Shown in pieces: positions 976 through 29,029 of a DNA stretch of 57,395 nucleotides. Each line of letters starts with the position of its first letter. Position 1 is the first letter of the stretch. The translations under genes and the position numbers were made by a program. The notes below the pieces were generated by a model. It worked only from the letters and a program-made list of their open reading frames with translations. It was not told where the DNA came from and did no database searches. The stretch lies in assembly GCA_023251435.1 (NCBI GenBank), contig JAHEYU010000003.1, positions 196,675 through 254,069 on the forward strand, written 5' to 3'. Source of the DNA: Bacteroidota bacterium (GTDB lineage Bacteria > Bacteroidota > Bacteroidia > Bacteroidales > Prolixibacteraceae).

Positions 976-3021
976 GGTGGCATTTGCTTTCAAATTGTAT
1001 CTTTAACGAGTTTTATCACAGCGACCGTTAAACTTGGAAAGAACTGCACCCTGTTGTGATTTGCTTTCAAATTGTATCTTTAATGCGTTCTATCACAGCA
1101 CTGAAAACTTGGTTCCAAACTCAACAAAGTTGTGATTTGCTTTCAAATTGTATCTTTAATGCGTTCTATCACAGCTACCGTGCGTTTGGCTCCGTTCAAA
1201 TCGGTGTTGTGATTTGCTTTCAAATTGTATCTTTAATGCGTTCTATCACAGCCGAAGAATTTGAAAATTACATGGCAATCCGGTTGTGATTTGCTTTCAA
1301 ATTGTATCTTTAATGCGTTCTATCACAGCTCACCGTATAAAGCTTCAAATTGATCAATCGTTGTGATTTGCTTTCAAATTGTATCTTTAATGCGTTCTAT
1401 CACAGCTCTTACTGCAAAAATTGAATATGGAGTCCGTTGTGATTTGCTTTCAAATTGTATCTTTAATGCGTTCTATCACAGCACCAAGAAAATTAAACGT
1501 CATTCCTGAATGAGTTGTGATTTGCTTTCAAATTGTATCTTTAATGCGTTCTATCACAGCATGATCTTGTAGGCTTAATTTCTTTTAGCTGTTGTGATTT
1601 GCTTTCAAATTGTATCTTTAATGCGTTCTATCACAGCCGGAACAAGAGGTATTACAGCTTACGGAGGGTTGTGATTTGCTTTCAAATTGTATCTTTAATG
1701 CGTTCTATCACAGCTTGTCCCCTTCAAAGGTGGGCGTTTAGGACGTTGTGATTTGCTTTCAAATTGTATCTTTAATGCGTTCTATCACAGCTTGGTGAGA
1801 TTCCTATTATTTCTCCGGTTCGTTGTGATTTGCTTTCAAATTGTATCTTTAATGCGTTCTATCACAGCCCTGGCTTTCGAGTGCGGTGAACTCGTCGAGT
1901 TGTGATTTGCTTTCAAATTGTATCTTTAATGCGTTCTATCACAGCCGGTTACCGGCCATTTACGTTCGGTGCTGTGTTGTGATTTGCTTTCAAATTGTAT
2001 CTTTAATGCGTTCTATCACAGCTCATTCCTTGATTCTTCGCTATATATTGAGTTGTGATTTGCTTTCAAATTGTATCTTTAATGCGTTCTATCACAGCTT
2101 AAAAGTTGTTGGCTGGTTGCAGCCCCGGTTGTGATTTGCTTTCAAATTGTATCTTTAATGCGTTCTATCACAGCGGGAGACGCCCACATATTGCATTTTA
2201 ATTGGTTGTGATTTGCTTTCAAATTGTATCTTTAATGCGTTCTATCACAGCAGAAGCAACTTTCAAACAAATCGGGTTATTGTTGTGATTTGCTTTCAAA
2301 TTGTATCTTTAATGCGTTCTATCACAGCTAATTCGGATACCCATATTTACATGAGTGAGTTGTGATTTGCTTTCAAATTGTATCTTTAATGCGTTCTATC
2401 ACAGCTTAATGTGTTTTCTACTCCATGTAAAATGGGTTGTGATTTGCTTTCAAATTGTATCTTTAATGCGTTCTATCACAGCTCCTTCTTCGGGCAGTAC
2501 TTCAGCGCCTCAGTTGTGATTTGCTTTCAAATTGTATCTTTAATGCGTTCTATCACAGCGCATCATAATGAAAGCCTATGTAAGTGCTGGTTGTGATTTG
2601 CTTTCAAATTGTATCTTTAATGCGTTCTATCACAGCACTCCATCAAAATCATGTCTTGACTGAATAGTTGTGATTTGCTTTCAAATTGTATCTTTAATGC
2701 GTTCTATCACAGCATCCGGCATACATTCTAGAATCAGCTTCGGGTTGTGATTTGCTTTCAAATTGTATCTTTAATGCGTTCTATCACAGCACTCGTAGGT
2801 TTTTCCGTTGTGGTGTTTTTGTTGTGATTTGCTTTCAAATTGTATCTTTAATGCGTTCTATCACAGCATTTTTCTATTTATGATGTCGCCGCCGCAAGTT
2901 GTGATTTGCTTTCAAATTGTATCTTTAATGCGTTCTATCACAGCTAACCAGATCGCTATCCGCACAAACATGCAGTTGTGATTTGCTTTCAAATTGTATC
3001 TTTAATGCGTTCTATCACAGC
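976..3021 (+). CRISPR. Type II-C CRISPR array, 27 repeats of 47 bp, 26 spacers
   Basis: The repeat is 47 bp, starting GTTGTGATTTGCTTTC and ending TTCTATCACAGC. Twenty-six copies (starting at 1053, 1129, 1206 and so on to 2975) look identical. The first (976-1022) is degenerate with six mismatches, marking the old end. Spacers are 29-31 bp, mostly 30. The first 22 nt after the initial G pair with the tracrRNA anti-repeat at 10261-10282, so crRNAs are read on the plus strand, opposite to the cas genes. Each intact repeat holds a Bacteroidota-type promoter match (TTG at repeat positions 2-4, 18-nt gap, TATCTTTA at 23-30). Reading frames across the array are repeat artefacts, not genes. Confidence 0.99.
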
Positions 3022-3059: not shown

Positions 3060-3117
3060 AACGTGACAGAAAACAAAAAAGCGGATTTTTCTCCGCTTTT
3101 TTGTTTTCTGTCACGTT
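3060..3117. terminator. Perfect 26-bp inverted repeat / bidirectional terminator between cas2 and array
   Basis: Arms 3060-3085 and 3092-3117 are perfectly complementary over 26 bp around a 6-nt loop. The core AAAAAAGCGGA/TCCGCTTTTTT is a strong intrinsic terminator on both strands. It lies 12 bp beyond the cas2 stop and 38 bp beyond the last CRISPR repeat, so it should separate cas-operon and array transcription. Confidence 0.85.
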
Positions 3118-3129
3118 GATTTTTTATTC

Positions 3130-3468
3130 CTAAAACAATTCCAGTTGTTGCGCAATTCCGGGTTTTTCGATGTTACGTTTGCTGAAAAACAGTTCCATCA
3201 TCCCAAATTGTTTATCGGTTATTTTCAAAATGCCTATATGTCCGTATTCGGGTAGCATATTTTTGATGCGCTGGGTGTGCACTTCGGCGTTCTCGCGGCT
3301 GGGTGAGTTACGCATATAAATCGAAAATTGGAACATTGTAAATCCATCTTTGATCAGATCTTTTCGAAACTTTGCCGCAGCCTTTTGCTGTTTCTTGGTT
3401 TCAACCGGAATATCAAAAAATACCAGTACCCACATACAACGATATTGGTTTAAAGCATCAAACGACAT
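3130..3468 (-). CDS. cas2: CRISPR-associated endoribonuclease/adaptation protein Cas2
   Basis: A 112-aa protein with the ferredoxin-like Cas2 fold signature: strand 1 with the acidic residue in [12 protein letters not shown] (about residues 13-24), and the central [21 protein letters not shown] block typical of type II-C Cas2. It forms the Cas1-Cas2 integrase complex that inserts new spacers. It is the last gene of the operon, 27 bp after cas1, and points toward the array. The start [10 protein letters not shown] was kept because Bacteroidota II-C Cas2 proteins commonly carry about ten residues before the first strand. Confidence 0.96.
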
Positions 3469-3495
3469 CTGTTATAGTTTTTGTTTTTTCGAAGG

Positions 3496-4398
3496 CTAAT
3501 TGTAAAACTCCGGATAAACAATTTTTCTCCGCGATCCTTCAAAACATTCAAACAGAGAATTGGTCGTGCGGCTTAGTGCAATCATTAACGGACTTTTTTT
3601 TCCATCAATCAGCACATCGCAGGTAGCGATACTTAATAGCTTCGCTTTTTGTTCGCGGGTAATGTTTTCGTTTTCAATCATTCCATCCGAGAAGAGTTGA
3701 TAAACCAATTCGTCGCAAAACGGACGATAAGGTTCCATAATATCGTCGGCCAAACAATAGGCATTGTATTTATTGCGGTGATGAATGCCCAGTGTAGGCA
3801 ACATTCCGCTACTAACCAGCGCACGGGCTACAATAGCGCGCAAAATGGCATAACAATAGTTTAAATGCGAGTTGGGTTCTATTCCATATCGGTTGCGGGT
3901 AAATCCATGCTCACCATACACCAACTTCCAGTAAACCGCGGCTGCACGACCTTCTGTATTTTCAGGATCTCCGGTTTTGATTTGCGGTATCAGGGCAAGT
4001 AATTGTTTATTTTCCATTCCAGCCCGTTTTAGCATAGCCGCCTGATTTTCGATTTTTGCCTTGATGGTTTGGGCCCACAGGTTCTTCAGCAAAGGTTCCG
4101 AGGCCGCAATCTGGATACGGAAACGTTCGGTCTGAACATGGTTGCCATCTAACGGAAGCATCAGTCCGGTGGGTAAATGCGTGCTGTCGCAACTAATCAA
4201 CCCCACGTTACGTTCAATCAGGTCGGCCATCAGCGCGTGGGTAATTGTTATTTGTGGATGATCGAGCAGGACAATGGCAATGTCTTCTAATGGGATCGTT
4301 GCTTTTTCGGTTCGAGTTTCCGGTTCTGCTACTTTTAATTGCTGGTCTTTTTTGTGCAGATACGCAGGGTTGCCAAAATAAAGGGTTCGTTTAATCAT
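3496..4398 (-). CDS. cas1: CRISPR-associated integrase Cas1 (type II)
   Basis: A 300-aa Cas1 beginning MIKRTLYFGNPAYL. Expected metal ligands are present: Glu149 in NTEGRAAAVYW, His206 in LGIHHRNKYNAY and Asp219 in LADDIMEPYRP. Cas1 joins Cas2 to integrate protospacers at the array end. A longer frame to 4452 exists, but the family start is at 4398, and its ATG overlaps the stop codon region of the upstream HUH gene (ATGATTAA), which indicates translational coupling. There is no cas4 or csn2 nearby, which fits subtype II-C. Confidence 0.97.
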   Translation of the reverse strand: MIKRTLYFGNPAYLHKKDQQLKVAEPETRTEKATIPLEDIAIVLLDHPQITITHALMADLIERNVGLISCDSTHLPTGLMLPLDGNHVQTERFRIQIAASEPLLKNLWAQTIKAKIENQAAMLKRAGMENKQLLALIPQIKTGDPENTEGRAAAVYWKLVYGEHGFTRNRYGIEPNSHLNYCYAILRAIVARALVSSGMLPTLGIHHRNKYNAYCLADDIMEPYRPFCDELVYQLFSDGMIENENITREQKAKLLSIATCDVLIDGKKSPLMIALSRTTNSLFECFEGSRRKIVYPEFYN

Positions 4399-5188
4399 CT
4401 TTTGGTTTAGGTATTTCGAGCTCGTAAATAGCTGTGAAGTCTTCGAGAGCAAACCGGTGTCGTTCGGTAAAAGATTCCAGTCCTCCGGCCATTTTCAGTA
4501 ATTTGTTTGTTTCAGTCAAATCACAAACACCGTTAATAATATCGTTGTACGAACTATAATCCCAATCTTCATATTTTGAGCAAAAGCCATGATGAACGGG
4601 ATTACGGTGGGTATAAACAACTACGTTAAGAAAGTGGGTTTTATCGCGTATCGGTTCGCGTTTAAAATTCTTGATAAACAACGATCCCATCCGGTTATAT
4701 ACCTTGTTGAACGACTGCGTATAGCAGCTAAACAGATTCGCGAATTGTTTCGATAAATATTTTTCGATTTCGCTATCGCTAATTATAATTTCCTCAACTT
4801 TTCCAAAGTTTACAGTCTTTGTTATATTGAATTGATTTTGAGATAGATTAACGTTTTTAACTTTTCCAAAGTTTACAGTTTTTGTTATATTGAATTGATT
4901 TTCAGGTATATTATAGCTCTGTTCAAGGTTTGAAACTTTGGAAAAGTTATTTTTCGTTTTATTTTTATTTCGAATCAGCTCTTCTATTACCGCGCGTTTA
5001 CGAATCCTGACCACCAAATGAAAATGATTGGGCATCAGGCAATACGCGTAGGTCTCGGCAATAGGGGAGATGTATAGCCGATACTTTTCCAGAAAGAAGT
5101 AGAAATTCTCTTCTTTCCTGAATACATTTTCGAACCCATTGGCGTGGTTGAAAATATGGTAGCTGGTATCGGGTTGAAGGGGTTGCAT
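4391..5188 (-). CDS. REP-associated tyrosine transposase (RAYT / Y1 HUH family) embedded in the cas operon
   Basis: A 265-aa Y1-transposase-like protein. It has the family N-terminus (YHIFNHANGFENVF), the HUH metal-binding motif His55-Phe-His57 in MPNHFHLVVR, and the catalytic-tyrosine region with Tyr192 in VVYTHRNPVHHGF, followed by the usual EDWDYSSYND. Both catalytic elements are intact, so it could cleave and join single-stranded DNA. Its ATG directly follows the cas9 stop (TAG|ATG), and its stop overlaps the cas1 start, so it is translated as part of the cas operon rather than being a recent random insertion. Residues about 81-131 are an expansion containing three NF(G/S)KV units, two within a duplicated 14-aa block. 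A role in adaptation, or simple hitchhiking, are both possible; function is unknown. Confidence 0.9.
   Translation of the reverse strand: MQPLQPDTSYHIFNHANGFENVFRKEENFYFFLEKYRLYISPIAETYAYCLMPNHFHLVVRIRKRAVIEELIRNKNKTKNNFSKVSNLEQSYNIPENQFNITKTVNFGKVKNVNLSQNQFNITKTVNFGKVEEIIISDSEIEKYLSKQFANLFSCYTQSFNKVYNRMGSLFIKNFKREPIRDKTHFLNVVVYTHRNPVHHGFCSKYEDWDYSSYNDIINGVCDLTETNKLLKMAGGLESFTERHRFALEDFTAIYELEIPKPKDD
4796..4948. repeat. Three REP-like 15-bp palindromes inside the RAYT coding sequence
   Basis: The palindrome AACTTT-TCC-AAAGTT occurs at 4796-4810, 4859-4873 and, in reverse orientation, 4934-4948. All are in the same reading frame of the minus-strand gene and encode NFGKV, NFGKV and NFSKV. The first two lie in a 44-bp direct duplication (4796-4839 and 4859-4902, one mismatch, period 63 bp). 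Confidence 0.9.
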
Positions 5189-8100
5189 CTAGCTTATTCT
5201 TGAGATATTCCCTAATCTATCAACTTTCAATTTCCAACAAACAGATTTTATCTGAACACCATCAAAAGAATTTTGATTCTTAGATTGAGGGCTACCTACC
5301 CCTAATTCATTTTGAATAAATAAATTGAGTCCGATCTTTTCTTGTTCCTTCTTGGACATATTGAACAACAAGTTAGCAACATTTACAGGAATAAAATTCA
5401 TAGTTGTTCCACTGCCATCAGTAAAACGATAAACTCTATTTAGCTGATCTATGGATATATTATTTAGATTGACAGTCTCATAATTTTCAAATTCTGATGC
5501 TTCTGGAACATATACTAAATCATTTGGATTGAGTTTGAAAATCAATTTATAATCAGGATATTCAGGATGAGTTTGTGGACAAGGATCAAAACCTTCTTTC
5601 AAATTGACAAGTGACTCCCTTAATGTCGGAATATAATACTTTCTCTCATTCCCTTTTTGATAAACACCACAAAAAGCATTGCTTCCACCAGCTGTTGCAA
5701 CATATTTTGAAGATTTAAGACCATCCTCTGATACTGGAAATTTAGTCCCCATAGCATCAGCCATCCTTACTTTATAAATTGGTTGATGGGATTTACCATT
5801 GTTTAATGATCTAATGTTCTGATTTAATTCCTTTATTCCTTCAGGGGAAAAAGCCAAAGTCTGCGGAGCAATTTCCTTTCCTTCATCATCTATTTTTCCT
5901 TTATAATTTTCAAGATGATTTAAAAGTATTTTCTGAATCCCGCTATCAGTAATTGATTCTAATGCTTTACGAATCTTATCCGATGAAGCCAAAGAGGTTA
6001 GTTCATTTCCAAATCTTGAAGCAACAAATTTTGCATAAACTCTAACTTTGGGATATTCACTGCTTAATAAACTGATAATTTCGCTATTGGATAGTTTTTG
6101 AACACGAAGAATTCTTATTCTATCAATAATATCTGTTTCAAAAAAATCATAGTTTTCTTCAATCGCAGTTCTAAAATCTACTTCGATTACATTTGTGTTG
6201 GTTTTTTCATTATTTTGAAGCTTGACTTTACCGTAAAAAGTATCTAAATGCAATGCCTGTCGTACGTTGTATTTCTTTTTTAATTCCAGATTTTCTTCTT
6301 TGTGAATTTCAATCTTTTCGATTTCATTATACTTGAGATACTTATTCCAGCGTTGACGGATAATCCGGTTTTTTTGTTTGAAACTTGCAACAGTATTATC
6401 AAGTGCTTCTTTGGCAATATCTTTGAATACTTTGCTTTTAGTCTCTTTATATTGATATTCAAATTCATAAATTCCTTCAGCTGATTTTGTTTGCGCAGGT
6501 GGTAAAAAGTACCATTCTTTTTCGTCATTAAAACCTCTACGGGAATTAGTCAGTATATACTTCAAGCCTTTTCTGGATTTCAATTTCTGTTCATCATTTT
6601 CCTCTTGTGAAGAAATATTATTAAGATATTGTACATGTTCTTCTGTAGTCAAAGCAATTACTAATGCATCCATTGCATGGTGACGATGGTCAATTCTTTT
6701 GGGATCAAAGTCTTTCTTAATCGCTTCTGGAACGTCATTCACAAACACATCATGCCCGTTGATTTTTCGATAATCACCAAATAGATTCGAGTTCGTTAAT
6801 TCGTTCAGCCTTTTGAATCTTGGAGAAGTCAATTCATTCCATGCTTCGTTTAATTTCCAATGTCTTTTCAGTTCTGAAGTTATTGTTCCATTTGTTGCTA
6901 CAACGTTTTTTGAACGATAAGTATCTTCATCCTTTTCCCTGACGATATTACTCAACAGTTTCATAGCCATTTTAGAAATATATTGCATATTAACCTTCTG
7001 GCTATTAGTAAAATCACCGGGAATATCTTTGCTTAATAGAATTTCTCTTTTTTTATCAATGAAATTTTGATTGACTAGTTGCTCATAACCTTCCACACTA
7101 AGAATTCTAACTTTAGCATCATGTGCTGCACAGTATATTTCTTTTTCATTCGCACTCAAAATGAAACCATATCCTGTATTTGATTTCTTTTCCTTATTAA
7201 TCTCAGTTTCACAGATGACTTTATTTGACAAAGCATTTAAGGTAATTCTTTCTTGCGGGAAGATATGCTCTATTTCATATTTTTTCCTGTCGAATAAGTC
7301 TGACAATTTAATGATCTGACCAGTATATGGAGATTGGTATCTTTGATCTAGCCAAAGTTTGTAACGTTCAAAATCGCTCCTGCTAACTTTCGTAATCTCT
7401 TTTGTAGTTATTTCTTTTATTTGCTTTTTTGTAATTTTTCCTTCTGGCAGATTATACTCTGTAGTATCCTTGTCGAACTCAATAGCAGATAGTAATCCTT
7501 CCTCTAAAATGCGGAGCTTTTCTTGTTGGAACGGTGATTTAACTTCAAGTGAAGTATTTTCTTTTTTCAGTTCTTTTAGAATTTCAATAATACGTTCGTT
7601 AGTTTTTCGGTTTTCTTTGTTTTGTTTGTCATCTTTCTCTTTTTGTTTGTTGTTTTTCTTCATCTCACGACCAAGTTCAATATGAATCTTATCAAATAAT
7701 TTGGCATAAACAGGATTTCCCTTTTCGTCTTCACCTAACTTTTCACCAAAGTATTTCCATACATCTTTTACCAAGTGAAGGGTCTCAACAAGCACTTTCT
7801 CGACAATGGGATTGTTCAATGAGTGCTGTTTGAATTCATTCTTTAAATACTTTTCAATATCATAAGGTGAATTCCAAAATTCAACTTCCCCAACTTCTGA
7901 ATACCTACCATATACTAAATAACAAGCACTTGATATCCAAAATCCCTGAAAATCATTTATTTCTCCATTTATACTTTCTTTATCTATTGCCTTTTTAATT
8001 ATTTCATCTGGTAGGTCTTTTTTGAGATTGTTCTCAATTTCTTTTGCATTCCAATATTTTCCTAAACGTAAGAATGGGAGTAGTTTTTTTATAGCTTTTT

Positions 8101-10219
8101 CAGAATAAGTTCCATAATCATTTGGATATCCTCCAAAAGAGCTGAAGTTTCTCACTAATTCGGGCAGATAATCGTTCGATAGTCCTGATTTCTCCAATAA
8201 TTGACTGAATAAACTATTTAATCCTTTGTAAAATTCTTCTTTTCTTTTTACCGAATAGAAGAAGTGCCATAGTTTATACTCTGTTTCACTAGACAGGAAT
8301 AACTTATAATCAAAGCCATTAACACGTTTAGTTCTTAATATGAACTCATGTCTTGTGGTATTACAGGGTTCTTTCTCTGAAGTAAAATTCCATTTGTAGT
8401 TTTCGGACTTAATTGTTTTATCATTGTAAGTTTTGCTCAAAAAATCAAGAATATTTTTCTCTGTAACAAAGTCCTTATCATTGAGATAGTCAAACAGTTT
8501 TTCTCTGATTTCTAATGAATTAAGATATTGGGATGTTACATCAATGTTTAATTTTGTCTCATTGTTAACAACGTCTTGTTTCTTCATTATTTTGAGTCGT
8601 TTAACAAACTGCCAAAGTCTGAACTCCTGAAATAATGGATTGAATTTATGGATTGCTTTAATTGGAACATCTACACTTTTATGAGTTTCTCCATCTCTGT
8701 ACTTTCTTGTTTCATATACACAGTCGGCAATCAAAGATTTTTTGGATTTCAAATCACGTTGATGCATTAAAATGTCTTCTTTAATTAGATAATTAAAATC
8801 TAACTCTTTGATTGTCTTTTGATGATTAATATTGTTTGGATACAATAGTTTTATTGCCTGTTCATACAATATTCTGTTTTTTAATTCCGGATGAAACCTT
8901 TCTTGATTTACAAATATTCTATCCAATTCTTCTCGGTAATAATCACGTTCAATGACTGTTACTAAATCACCTTTGATTCTCTGTTTCGGATTTTGCAATA
9001 GATTGTAATAGACAAAAGAAGCTATTCCTACCGTATTGTTCTTTGTGTTGAAATTGGTTATCGAAGTTTCTGTTTTTAGCTTCATCAATGTCCAATCCTC
9101 TTCTTTAGGTATCCCAATATTTCGCCCTTTGTCTACACCTTTTAATATTCGCTCCCCATTTTCATTATACTTTGTCTTTATAATGAAATCTCTCTTTGTG
9201 TCTTTCCACTTAGGAGTGAATCGACTCTGCTGTTCCTTAATCCAGCCAGTTTCTAGTTCTATCTCAAAAACAAAGTTCTCTTTTCTCTTTTGCCAAGTAT
9301 TTTGGACGTTGGTAATGCGTAATTCTCTAATCTCGTTGACGACGTATTCTGTTTTAGAGTTATCGATCTCTCCAGCATCATTAAATTTCGAAACCCTTTC
9401 AATTTCTTTCAAATCACCGATCTCCGTGATGGGAATTGTGGATTCTTCTTTATAGCGAAATAATTCAAGTGCCTCATTATTAATATCCGAAAGTACTATT
9501 TCATAGATGTCTTTCTCTTCAAGTTTTTGAACACTTTTTACTTTGCCAATAAAAGTATCTGATCTTTCTCCCTCTTTTTGCACTTTCTCATCCTGTCCAA
9601 TAACTTTTTCATAACCTCTTTTCTGGTTGAAACTTAATGTTATCCAAGCCAATTGTTCTTTTGTTAATTCAAAACTTGGGTCAGTTACAGCCTTATGCCT
9701 TAAATAATACAGTGTCCAATCATGTGGCAATTTTGTTACGTTGCCATTTCTCTTTTGATAGAATAGTTCGGGGTGACGTAATTTGAAGTCAGCTTCCATT
9801 TTTTCATAGGCATCCATAAAAAGGAACTGATCTTTCCCATTCTCGCCTTTATAATAGGCTAATTTTACTTCTGCTCCTTTTTTTAACTTACCACTTCGTT
9901 TTCCTTTTTCGTTTTCAAACTCAATTGAAAGTTGATAATGCGAAGGCAAAGTATTTAATAGATTTAGAATACAATGAAGTCGGTCTCTTCTTAAAAGGTA
10001 TCGTTCGTTTAATTTTCGAGGCGTACGCCTCTCTGTCCTTTGTGCAGCAGCACTTGAAAGTTTTGCTCCGCTTTCAAATTTTGCAATCTCAGCGGCATCC
10101 ATATTTAGTATCCGAGAACCAAGCCCTAAGATTCTTACTATTCTTTTATGATGTTCAATTTCTACCAGAGCCCAACCTATCGAGTTGGTTCCTAAATCCA
10201 GTCCTAAAATTTTTTTCAT
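5189..10219 (-). CDS. cas9: CRISPR-associated endonuclease Cas9, large type II-C form
   Basis: A 1676-aa Cas9, RNA-guided DNA nuclease. RuvC-I has Asp8 in ILGLDLGTNSIGWALVE. An arginine-rich bridge helix follows (QRTERRTPRKLNERYLLRRD). RuvC-II has Glu848 in IHIELGREMKKN. HNH has His985 in YEIEHIFPQER followed by LSNKV. RuvC-III has His1181 and Asp1184 in HRHHAMDALVIA. All catalytic residues are present. The protein is unusually long for II-C, with about 840 residues between RuvC-I and RuvC-II and about 490 after RuvC-III, a size more like Francisella II-B Cas9. The gene is visibly more AT-rich than the metabolic genes around it, suggesting transfer. It heads the operon cas9-RAYT-cas1-cas2; tracrRNA starts divergently 42 bp upstream. 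Confidence 0.98.
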   Translation of the reverse strand: MKKILGLDLGTNSIGWALVEIEHHKRIVRILGLGSRILNMDAAEIAKFESGAKLSSAAAQRTERRTPRKLNERYLLRRDRLHCILNLLNTLPSHYQLSIEFENEKGKRSGKLKKGAEVKLAYYKGENGKDQFLFMDAYEKMEADFKLRHPELFYQKRNGNVTKLPHDWTLYYLRHKAVTDPSFELTKEQLAWITLSFNQKRGYEKVIGQDEKVQKEGERSDTFIGKVKSVQKLEEKDIYEIVLSDINNEALELFRYKEESTIPITEIGDLKEIERVSKFNDAGEIDNSKTEYVVNEIRELRITNVQNTWQKRKENFVFEIELETGWIKEQQSRFTPKWKDTKRDFIIKTKYNENGERILKGVDKGRNIGIPKEEDWTLMKLKTETSITNFNTKNNTVGIASFVYYNLLQNPKQRIKGDLVTVIERDYYREELDRIFVNQERFHPELKNRILYEQAIKLLYPNNINHQKTIKELDFNYLIKEDILMHQRDLKSKKSLIADCVYETRKYRDGETHKSVDVPIKAIHKFNPLFQEFRLWQFVKRLKIMKKQDVVNNETKLNIDVTSQYLNSLEIREKLFDYLNDKDFVTEKNILDFLSKTYNDKTIKSENYKWNFTSEKEPCNTTRHEFILRTKRVNGFDYKLFLSSETEYKLWHFFYSVKRKEEFYKGLNSLFSQLLEKSGLSNDYLPELVRNFSSFGGYPNDYGTYSEKAIKKLLPFLRLGKYWNAKEIENNLKKDLPDEIIKKAIDKESINGEINDFQGFWISSACYLVYGRYSEVGEVEFWNSPYDIEKYLKNEFKQHSLNNPIVEKVLVETLHLVKDVWKYFGEKLGEDEKGNPVYAKLFDKIHIELGREMKKNNKQKEKDDKQNKENRKTNERIIEILKELKKENTSLEVKSPFQQEKLRILEEGLLSAIEFDKDTTEYNLPEGKITKKQIKEITTKEITKVSRSDFERYKLWLDQRYQSPYTGQIIKLSDLFDRKKYEIEHIFPQERITLNALSNKVICETEINKEKKSNTGYGFILSANEKEIYCAAHDAKVRILSVEGYEQLVNQNFIDKKREILLSKDIPGDFTNSQKVNMQYISKMAMKLLSNIVREKDEDTYRSKNVVATNGTITSELKRHWKLNEAWNELTSPRFKRLNELTNSNLFGDYRKINGHDVFVNDVPEAIKKDFDPKRIDHRHHAMDALVIALTTEEHVQYLNNISSQEENDEQKLKSRKGLKYILTNSRRGFNDEKEWYFLPPAQTKSAEGIYEFEYQYKETKSKVFKDIAKEALDNTVASFKQKNRIIRQRWNKYLKYNEIEKIEIHKEENLELKKKYNVRQALHLDTFYGKVKLQNNEKTNTNVIEVDFRTAIEENYDFFETDIIDRIRILRVQKLSNSEIISLLSSEYPKVRVYAKFVASRFGNELTSLASSDKIRKALESITDSGIQKILLNHLENYKGKIDDEGKEIAPQTLAFSPEGIKELNQNIRSLNNGKSHQPIYKVRMADAMGTKFPVSEDGLKSSKYVATAGGSNAFCGVYQKGNERKYYIPTLRESLVNLKEGFDPCPQTHPEYPDYKLIFKLNPNDLVYVPEASEFENYETVNLNNISIDQLNRVYRFTDGSGTTMNFIPVNVANLLFNMSKKEQEKIGLNLFIQNELGVGSPQSKNQNSFDGVQIKSVCWKLKVDRLGNISRIS

Positions 10220-10260: not shown

Positions 10261-10348
10261 ACAATTTGAAAGCAAATCACAATAAGGATTATTCCGTTGT
10301 GAAAACATTTAAGTCACCCTCGTCTTACAATACGGGGGTATTTTTTTT
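10261..10348 (+). ncRNA. tracrRNA
   Basis: Positions 10261-10282 are perfectly complementary over 22 nt to the start of the CRISPR repeat (anti-repeat ACAATTTGAAAGC...). Then comes a nexus-type stem (CACAA...AAGGATTATTCC...TTGTG), a short linker AAAACATTTAAG, and a terminal hairpin ACCCTCGT/ACGGGGGT (10316-10339) followed by eight T residues. This is the expected architecture of a II-C tracrRNA of about 88 nt, transcribed divergently from cas9. It directs crRNA maturation and Cas9 loading. The 5' end is inferred from the promoter match. Confidence 0.92.
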
Positions 10349-10638: not shown

Positions 10639-10664
10639 AAGTTGGAAACTTCCGCACCCATAAA
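10639..10664 (+). repeat. Right copy of 26-bp direct repeat bracketing the CRISPR-Cas locus
   Basis: AAGTTGGAAACTTCCG followed by CACCCATAAA differs from the left copy at 916-941 in only two positions and has the same orientation. It ends 6 bp before the IS1182 remnant. Confidence 0.7.
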
Positions 10665-10703: not shown

Positions 10704-10933
10704 GTATGTAGGGCATGGTATTAAGCTAACAGGATGCAAGTTCCTGTATGTGATGAGTTGACAGGAAACATTAGCGATTGGCAAGGGTGTTGCGGGTGAC
10801 TGCAAATCTGAAAGAAGCCATCAGCAAAACTGAAGTTCTGACGAACAGAAACCAGATATAAGGCTCACTATAGAAGGCAAATGAGCTATGGATTGGGAAT
10901 GCCCCAAAGTCAACCGTAACTCAAGCGAGTAAA
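10704..10933 (+). mobile_element. Group II intron 5' fragment (domain I region), truncated
   Basis: The segment begins GTATGTAGGGCATGGT directly after a terminator-like hairpin. It aligns with the sequence starting at 57283. Both copies contain GGCAAGGGTGT and ATCTGAAAGAA, the landmarks I recognise from bacterial group II intron domain I, and copy 1 continues with CTGACGAACAG and ATATAAGGC. Stems covary between copies: ACAG/CTGT here versus GCAG/CTGC at 57308-57326. The fragment stops where transposase-coding sequence resumes. There is no intron RT in this copy. The class is not assigned. Confidence 0.5.
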
Positions 10934-11032
10934 TCAGGCAGAACGTGCATAAAACACCGCAAACAGCGATCGGCAGATGTAGAGGCAACCTTTGGAAACA
11001 TCAAACAAAACAAAGGTTTTAGAAGATTTATG
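10934..11032 (+). pseudogene. IS1182-family transposase, C-terminal remnant
   Basis: One frame encodes HRKQRSADVEATFGNIKQNK followed by GFRRFM, the conserved C-terminal signature of IS1182-type DDE transposases. Nothing upstream of it is transposase-like, and the normal continuation after RRFM is lost. It is a dead fragment inside the element 10670-11119. Confidence 0.75.
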
Positions 11033-28653: not shown

Positions 28654-28767
28654 TATGTAATAATTTTGAATGGTTTCAAAACAATTACAATACGCAAAAC
28701 TGCTGAAATAACCTTGTGAATATGCTTTGGGTTACTCCAAGCTTTTTCTCCCGAAAGCTTTGAATAT

Positions 28768-28920
28768 TGTATCACGAAATGGCAGGTCTTCTGGCTCACT
28801 CCATTTTTGCGGCCTTCCCATCCCGGTTTAGCGGTACAGTGGCGTGAGTTGCAAAAATTCATCAGAGTTTACAGCTGCGGGTACAGCTCCGGATTTTAAC
28901 CGGATTCCCTCTTGATACTC
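28768..28920 (-). promoter_or_regulatory. Cobalamin (AdoCbl) riboswitch
   Basis: On the minus strand the hallmark elements appear in order: GGGAATCCGGT and AAATCCGGAGCTGTACCCGC, the B12-box core GCCACTG (28838-28844), GGGAAGGC, and finally AGCCAGAAGACCTGCC (28781-28796). GTATCA/TGATAC can pair as the closing stem. It lies 115 nt before the DUF4465 gene. The downstream AAGCTT...AAGCTT hairpin probably belongs to the expression platform. Cobalamin is expected to turn the gene off. Confidence 0.95.
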
Positions 28921-29029
28921 GAAAAAAGTATCACCAATTCGGTGGCTAAGATAAGGCAAAATCGAATTCAGGAATGGATTCGACGAAAAAAATATTAGCT
29001 AAAAATGTTAATCGGTTAGATTACTGAAG

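Follow-up and report, generated by a model that had tools for sequence, protein, structure and literature searches.

A gene for a RAYT, a REP (repetitive extragenic palindromic)-associated tyrosine transposase, lies between cas9 and cas1 of a type II-C CRISPR-Cas operon in a member of the Bacteroidales, and RAYT genes recur upstream of cas1 across genera and families of this order and beyond it. The operon comes from a stretch of 57,395 nt (the window) of Bacteroidota bacterium GCA_023251435.1 (contig JAHEYU010000003.1; family Prolixibacteraceae, order Bacteroidales), which we compared with other loci (L numbers) and genomes (G numbers). As far as sequence comparison can tell, such RAYTs occupy a slot at a gene boundary, lie on one strand with cas1, evolve under purifying selection, keep a mostly intact active site, stay linked to cas1-cas2, and have been replaced by other RAYTs. 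We tentatively favor the reading that the RAYT is a recruited accessory of the CRISPR adaptation module that has been acquired repeatedly, and we put the chances of this at a little short of even.

The window operon and its RAYT

On the minus strand of the window, cas9 is followed by a 265-aa HUH gene, cas1, cas2, and a 27-copy array. The TAG stop of cas9 abuts the ATG of the HUH gene (TAGATG), and the stop of the HUH gene overlaps the start of cas1 by 8 nt (ATGATTAA, 4398-4391). The gene order and these two junctions confirm the placement of a RAYT inside a II-C operon that a preliminary description of the sequence had claimed. Among open reading frames (ORFs) of at least 80 aa, the interval from 3130 to 10219 holds only cas9, the RAYT gene, cas1, and cas2, besides short overlapping ORFs; neither csn2 (II-A) nor cas4 (II-B/II-D) was among them. 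Cas9, the type II Cas1, and Cas2 all passed their NCBIfam cutoffs. With its cas9, type II cas1, and cas2 operon, array, and candidate anti-repeat of a trans-activating CRISPR RNA (tracrRNA), the locus is an ordinary type II-C locus apart from the RAYT gene. The features of the locus are as follows.

5189 to 10219, minus strand: cas9, type II-C, 1676 aa (TIGR01865, 295 bits against a cutoff of 100; RuvC_III, HNH_4, bridge helix)
4391 to 5188, minus strand: RAYT/TnpA-REP HUH gene, 265 aa, with H55, H57, and Y192 (ORF, motifs, NCBIfam, PDB match, fold)
3496 to 4398, minus strand: type II cas1, ATG at 4398 (TIGR03639, 297 bits against a cutoff of 120); start chosen from MIKRTLYF, which is conserved in relatives
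3130 to 3468, minus strand: cas2 (TIGR01573, 73 bits against a cutoff of 24.5)
976 to 3021, minus strand: CRISPR array, 27 repeats of 47 nt, period 77
10261 to 10282: candidate tracrRNA anti-repeat, 22 nt, complementary to the CRISPR repeat (inverted repeats I8-I25)
3060 to 3117, minus strand: terminator-like 26-bp perfect inverted repeat in the gap between cas2 and the array (inverted repeat I3)
4934 to 4948, minus strand: REP-like palindrome AACTTTTCCAAAGTT within the RAYT ORF
4859 to 4873, plus strand: REP-like palindrome in the opposite orientation within the RAYT ORF
4796 to 4810, plus strand: third copy of the REP-like palindrome within the RAYT ORF

The HUH protein had no Pfam match at 1e-3, and its sole NCBIfam match was NF047646 (REP-associated tyrosine transposase; E = 1.4e-14), at 54 bits against a cutoff of 80. 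This cutoff seems not to cover the window's branch, since all seven relatives tried scored below it as well (46 to 61 bits). When a profile of 18 embedded proteins was compared with PDB sequences, the only match at E ≤ 0.001 was TnpA-REP of Escherichia coli (PDB 4er8; E = 1.9e-4), with Tyr192 falling on Tyr115 and PNHFH on PEHMH. The same entry was the best PDB match of an AlphaFold model of the window protein (mean pLDDT, 74.8; E = 1.7e-6, probability 1.00, TM 0.40/0.60). Accordingly, the profile and fold matches identify the protein as a RAYT. The His55, His57, and catalytic Tyr192 of the preliminary description are present and align with the HxH motif and Tyr115 of 4er8, a tyrosine whose change to phenylalanine leaves E. 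coli TnpA-REP catalytically dead (PMC8266576). In the window protein, the HUH motif is combined with a single catalytic tyrosine in a YxxxNP motif (YTHRNP), as expected of a RAYT; the YxxxQ type belongs to TnpA of IS200/IS605 (PMC6006769), and no tnpB-like ORF was noticed by eye in the ORF listing of the window. A misannotated Cas gene (Cas4 or Csn2) is excluded by the motifs, the NCBIfam match, and the fold. The window genome encodes one further RAYT, which is distant. By its motif and copy number, the gene does not match an IS200/IS605 insertion sequence with a multicopy TnpA.

REP palindromes accompany the gene as well. Three exact copies of AACTTTTCCAAAGTT lie inside the RAYT ORF, in the part for the loop that separates the HUH motif from the Tyr motif, and at up to two mismatches there were 4 matches in the window against 0.58 expected. 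Two of the copies are held by in-frame direct repeats 63 bp apart (4796-4850 and 4859-4913), and as single-stranded DNA the segment from 4780 to 4960 folds strongly (z = -5.5). A related element of about 90 bp occurs elsewhere in the window genome, outside recognized genes.

Recurrence and replacement of RAYTs upstream of cas1

Type II cas1 matches numbered 22 in 20 of the 60 genomes of the window's family. A same-strand RAYT ORF lay just upstream of cas1 in 17 of these loci, counting the window and one ORF cut by a contig end (G423). Within the order, Cas1 matches were found in 141 of 393 genomes; 130 loci were examined of the 146 matches listed, the 16 weakest being left out, and a RAYT was upstream of cas1 in 35 of them, again with the window counted. 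(The window locus and G268 enter both the order and the family counts, and early contig ends, as in L106, can hide a RAYT.) All 35 upstream RAYTs were on the cas1 strand and none was opposite, and 33 were within 200 bp of cas1, the others being at about 0.8 kb (L086) and 2.2 kb (L176); for L095 and L107, the distance was taken from the nearer of two RAYT copies or pieces. L095 carries two tandem RAYTs that are 94% identical (4948-6350), and a third close copy (89%) occupies the second II-C locus of the same genome (L178). Another genome of the window's family, G268, has no RAYT, and its cas1 is 67% identical.

Beyond the order, a phylum sample yielded 58 Cas1 matches in 57 of 395 genomes, 55 of them outside the order. 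At least three of these 55 type II loci had a RAYT (G633, G765, and G575), in one other family of the same class and in one family of another class (G575). The profile searches scored up to seven candidates per genome, so that RAYT counts there are lower bounds. Named genomes were scanned with a profile of class B RAYTs: 19 of the 80 best contigs held cas9 or cas1 (17 type II and 2 I-C). Among the type II contigs were those of the isolates Perlabentimonas gracilis M08_MB and Marinilabilia salmonicolor MSL42, the latter with a short RAYT frame of 180 aa. In the 393 genomes of the order, a profile search put 53 RAYTs of class B over 258 bits; going by coordinates, 27 of them precede a cas1 match by no more than 0.8 kb, and one more lies behind cas9 at a contig end. 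The profile for this search came from embedded proteins and may favor embedded matches. The genome search that the preliminary description had suggested thus shows the RAYT-cas1 order recurring. Confinement to one strain, with the closest relatives lacking the gene, does not hold, as two other members of the window's genus, and one genome from another genus, have the same RAYT type there. A one-strain artifact or chance insertion is ruled out by this recurrence in relatives and in the family's loci.

The slot differs from the surroundings of RAYTs at large. As a control, we took 142 scattered RAYTs whose examined stretch lacks type II cas9 or cas1; this set includes 9 RAYTs from 8 loci later found to carry type I cas genes. 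Scattered RAYTs were co-oriented with the downstream gene in 74 of 135 cases, with the upstream gene in 86 of 134, and with both in 49 of 127, and no family of neighbors had more than four members. Co-orientation with the downstream gene was therefore far more frequent in embedded than in scattered RAYTs (35/35 versus 74/135; Fisher P = 1.9e-8). In the examined stretches of the 130 order loci, the gap between cas1 and cas2 and the sequence beyond cas2 were free of RAYTs. Two RAYT matches lay elsewhere, one a 64-aa fragment upstream of cas9 (L092) and the other 5.5 kb upstream of cas1 (L170).

RAYTs were also found in type I operons. Type I cas genes were present at 9 of 141 RAYT loci that lacked type II genes in a first screen; two of these are the same place, leaving 8. 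The gene after the RAYT was cas4 in five of them, which makes the border between effector and adaptation genes the commonest place. Two are I-C, with the order cas7(Csd2)-RAYT-cas4-cas1c (L279, where cas2 is present, and L270, with a gap of about 0.4 kb to cas4), and L020 (RAYT-cas4-cas1b) is I-B by its Cas1. L322 (cas7-RAYT-cas4-23S intervening sequence protein [IVP]) and L412 (cas3-149-aa ORF-RAYT-cas4-23S IVP-cas1) are likely I-B, although their cas7, cas3, and partial cas1 matches are under the cutoffs.

Embedded RAYTs formed several groups among scattered ones, with 20 label changes over 86 rows (shuffled mean, 27.7; L199 was labeled scattered although it lies behind cas9). A larger tree of 202 rows, which left out L107 and family RAYTs shorter than 150 aa (G423), had 35 label changes (shuffled mean, 61.1 with three labels). 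The window-type RAYTs (window, G407, G435, G393, and L084) grouped as a clade (99*) that took in none of the scattered RAYTs of the 202 rows. Whether embedded RAYTs form a clade of their own therefore has a divided answer: the window type does, its five rows all being at cas loci, and embedded RAYTs overall do not. In the Cas1 tree of the 130 loci, a clade of 15 (99*) had 14 RAYT-bearing members, 13 with class B RAYTs and one, L066, with a class A RAYT. Closer to the window, three genomes of its genus have a cas1 87 to 88% identical to that of the window; two carry the window RAYT type (G407 and G435) and the third another type (G423, 88%). Different RAYTs have thus filled the slot repeatedly, even within the window genus.

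Within the same genus, cas1, cas2, and the RAYT have stayed together while cas9 was exchanged. Identities to the window in G407 and G435, respectively, were 88 and 87% for cas1, 73.5 and 61% for the RAYT, and 38 and 23% for cas9; cas2 is also retained. In G393, conversely, cas9 was 89% and cas1 82% identical to the window. This exchange makes the proposed co-expression of the RAYT in a fixed ratio with Cas9 doubtful. Exchange of cas9 has already been reported for II-C (PMC12669027), and it occurs at RAYT-less loci too, for which reason we rejected the RAYT as a cause of the swaps. The cas9 of G407 (L334, 5519-10136) is split over two overlapping frames of 408 and 1187 aa, either through mutation or through an error in the assembly.

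Substitution patterns show the window RAYT type to be under purifying selection. Nonsynonymous (dN) and synonymous (dS) divergence from the window RAYT was 0.115 and 0.66 for G407, 0.213 and 1.14 for G435, and 0.15 and 2.4 for G393, and dN/dS between window-type RAYTs ranged from about 0.06 to 0.19. Of 12 other RAYT pairs, 5 were saturated; six of the remaining seven gave dN/dS of 0.11 to 0.19, and the highest was 0.39 (L035/L044). The HxH and YxxxNP motifs were present in 65 of 70 cas-associated RAYTs, those without a full match being L084, L038, L283, L285, and L307. We rejected an effect of the RAYT on spacer length: 17 of 19 arrays accompanied by a RAYT have a repeat period of 75 to 77, and where the RAYT is missing the period is mostly 75 to 79, 13 of 59 arrays being at 66. 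Arrays with a RAYT seem longer (median of 29 copies at 9 loci versus 21.5 at 40 loci; P = 0.017), but ancestry and the bounded length of the stretches retrieved both confound this difference, so we do not rely on it.

Some other occupants of cas operons were seen along the way. In L103, L114, L102, L152, and L047, the gap between cas9 and cas1 holds Bro-N, DUF6036-like nucleotidyltransferases with a small upstream ORF, or DUF6155. Four-helix proteins of the 23S rRNA IVP type are encoded after cas4 in two type I loci (L322, 50-427; L412, 394-768) and before cas1 in the II-C locus L089 (7606-7977).

Adaptation accessory or selfish cassette

RAYTs studied elsewhere cut single-stranded REP hairpins at CT (or CA), form a 5'-phosphotyrosine, leave a free 3'-OH, and carry out strand transfer (PMC8266576). 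We hypothesize that the embedded RAYT probably acts in spacer acquisition as a single-strand nuclease or strand-transferase, and we infer the step as follows. The RAYT would be co-expressed with cas1-cas2 in type II operons or cas4-cas1-cas2 in type I operons. Probably at replication forks, it would apply its HUH/Tyr chemistry to single-stranded DNA, cutting beside a hairpin to give a 5'-phosphotyrosine and a free 3'-OH. It would thereby make or trim pieces for integration by Cas1-Cas2, most likely single-stranded prespacer ends. The REP palindromes in or beside the gene would be the sites that this RAYT itself recognizes, inherited from a REP-RAYT cassette. A bolder form of this proposal makes RAYTs a recurrent adaptation enzyme of Bacteroidota II-C, I-B, and I-C systems, one that captures hairpin-adjacent DNA via the 5'-phosphotyrosine and feeds Cas1-Cas2. 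In this form, one RAYT would give way to another in the slot because every newcomer adds a different sequence preference; we regard it as unlikely.

Several observations weigh against a role as an adaptation accessory. Of the 130 order loci examined, 95 had no RAYT, which implies that the gene is dispensable. The RAYT of G485, outside the order, lies about 2.5 kb past cas1 on the opposite strand, and in three of the eight type I loci (L325, L323, and L006/L038) it is at cas6, away from the adaptation genes; in L325, it lies between cas6 and an ORF taken as cas8, an ORF without a family match. Embedded RAYTs mix with scattered ones in the trees and, like them, retain REP palindromes. RAYT and Cas1 distances were weakly correlated over 26 class B loci (r = 0.38, P = 0.001) and not significantly so over 13 loci of the RAYT-rich Cas1 clade (r = 0.22, P = 0.10). 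L084, a close homolog of the window RAYT, has phenylalanine at the position of the catalytic tyrosine and may be dead, since this change abolishes cutting in studied RAYTs (PMC8266576). Two of 36 order RAYTs are broken, L107 being split and L113 having an in-frame stop in its N-terminal part. The gap between cas9 and cas1 sometimes holds other cargo where the RAYT is missing (Bro-N, twice; nucleotidyltransferases, twice; 23S IVP; DUF6155), and purifying selection alone does not separate an accessory from its rivals. We rejected a single ancient acquisition inherited with cas1 on two grounds: the embedded RAYTs do not make up one clade, and RAYT and Cas1 distances are correlated weakly or not at all.

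The main rival treats the unit as a selfish REP-RAYT cassette that favors this junction as a place to park. On this account, which we consider rather unlikely, weakly mobile REP-RAYT-REP cassettes tend to insert, or to persist, where cas9 meets cas1 in dispensable, horizontally moving CRISPR loci and have no CRISPR role. The entry of other cargo into the same gap is in keeping with this, as are the palindromes. Palindromes border many embedded units, at one end or at both, and those with 10-bp arms were found to the left in 15, inside in 24, and to the right in 14 of 35 embedded RAYTs, as they were in scattered RAYTs (63, 62, and 69 of 138, respectively). The cas9 stop of G024 and of G312 lies within the left palindrome and is provided by it, whereas the junction of G234, from the same genus, has no RAYT; this agrees with the RAYT having come in as a REP-RAYT-REP cassette. 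The exact REP core was confined to the RAYT unit or the cas operon in 4 of 10 searched genomes; in another 4 it had no copy at all (one of these, G146, was outside the intended sample). However, parking leaves unexplained why all 35 RAYTs share the cas1 strand, why, at the 130 loci, none was seen in the cas1-cas2 gap or beyond cas2, and why five type I operons have the RAYT at the boundary before cas4. It also sits poorly with the window lineage, in which the RAYT is fitted tightly between its operon neighbors with no palindromes at its sides, yet stays under selection.

We find it improbable that the unit is chiefly a regulatory cassette, in which palindromes between cas9 and cas1 tune the expression of cas1-cas2 relative to cas9 through mRNA ends or pausing, with the RAYT maintaining the palindromes. 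Hairpins do lie between cas9 and cas1 at many RAYT-bearing loci, and REPs have been hypothesized to act in termination and mRNA stabilization (PMC3733652). But in the window and in L084, the genes are separated by 0 to 17 bp with no palindrome there, the window palindromes being inside the ORF, and both protein-level selection and the catalytic residues are maintained.

Very improbable, in our judgment, is module exchange or mobilization, in which the HUH nuclease nicks the module boundary and so brings about cas9 swaps or movement of the locus. Different cas9 genes do stand upstream of a retained RAYT-cas1-cas2 unit in the window genus, and the whole window locus is bracketed by a 26-bp direct repeat (916-941 and 10639-10664; 24/26 identical), of which no further copy at up to two mismatches was found in the genome. 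Against this, cas9 swaps at RAYT-less loci too, as is reported for II-C (PMC12669027), and the window's flanking repeat was not found in the other fetched loci. A conserved direct repeat bounding CRISPR loci was accordingly rejected: it is seen in the window only, and the single flanking repeat among 33 other loci is different and inverted.

The window also contains two RNA elements. Upstream of cas9, at 10790-10967, is a group II intron D1-D4-like RNA (RF02001, 87 bits), which by eye seems to lie within a short element with inverted ends; no intron protein ORF was in the ORF listing of the window. A cobalamin riboswitch is on the minus strand at 28765-28953.

Relation to known systems

In Cas9, type II Cas1, Cas2, array, and anti-repeat, and in having no csn2 or cas4 in its operon, the window locus matches type II-C systems; it differs in the RAYT gene between cas9 and cas1. 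The RAYT itself resembles subclasses 2.4 and 2.6, described from Bacteroidetes, in HUH fold and NHFH and YxxxNP motifs (Quentin 2018, PMC6006769). A REP insertion within the gene is described there for 2.4 and flanking structures for 2.6, so that a REP inside or beside a RAYT gene is a known trait; our match to these subclasses is by resemblance. The difference is that the window RAYT is operonic with cas genes, and the word CRISPR is absent from the main text of that paper.

Additional enzymes beside cas1 have precedents. Cas4 and Csn2 are adaptation-linked accessories encoded beside cas1. RT (reverse transcriptase)-Cas1 and the CRISPR-associated primase-polymerase (CAPP) likewise place an extra nucleic-acid enzyme or factor there. 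Compared with all of these, the RAYT is an unfused protein of transposase origin, probably an HUH/Tyr single-strand nuclease, that was recruited several times. PcrIIC1 is also encoded by an extra gene in some II-C loci, but it has another fold (PIN type) and is described as enhancing targeting rather than adaptation (PMC12669027); neither HUH nor RAYT occurs in the main text of that paper. The preliminary description knew of no system with this layout. A full-text literature search agrees insofar as no description of a RAYT within a cas operon was found among the titles and abstract openings of the matches listed. The claim is qualified by the FLSHclust survey of 2023, where a figure legend on putative CRISPR auxiliary genes lists a "Y1 Tpase" that may or may not be the RAYT described here, and where 23S rRNA IVP is placed in the adaptation panel (PMC10910872).

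RAYTs are described as maintained in the manner of housekeeping genes and as co-opted to some benefit of the host (PMC8266576). A conserved RAYT slot before cas1 links the question of which benefit this is with that of how II-C systems, which have neither Cas4 nor Csn2, make their spacers and trim them. RAYTs are kin to the IS200/IS605 transposases, whose relatives gave rise to Cas9. If the adaptation reading is true, an HUH transposase has been recruited repeatedly beside the Cas1 integrase, and a transposase family kin to IS200/IS605 would also supply a step of spacer acquisition.

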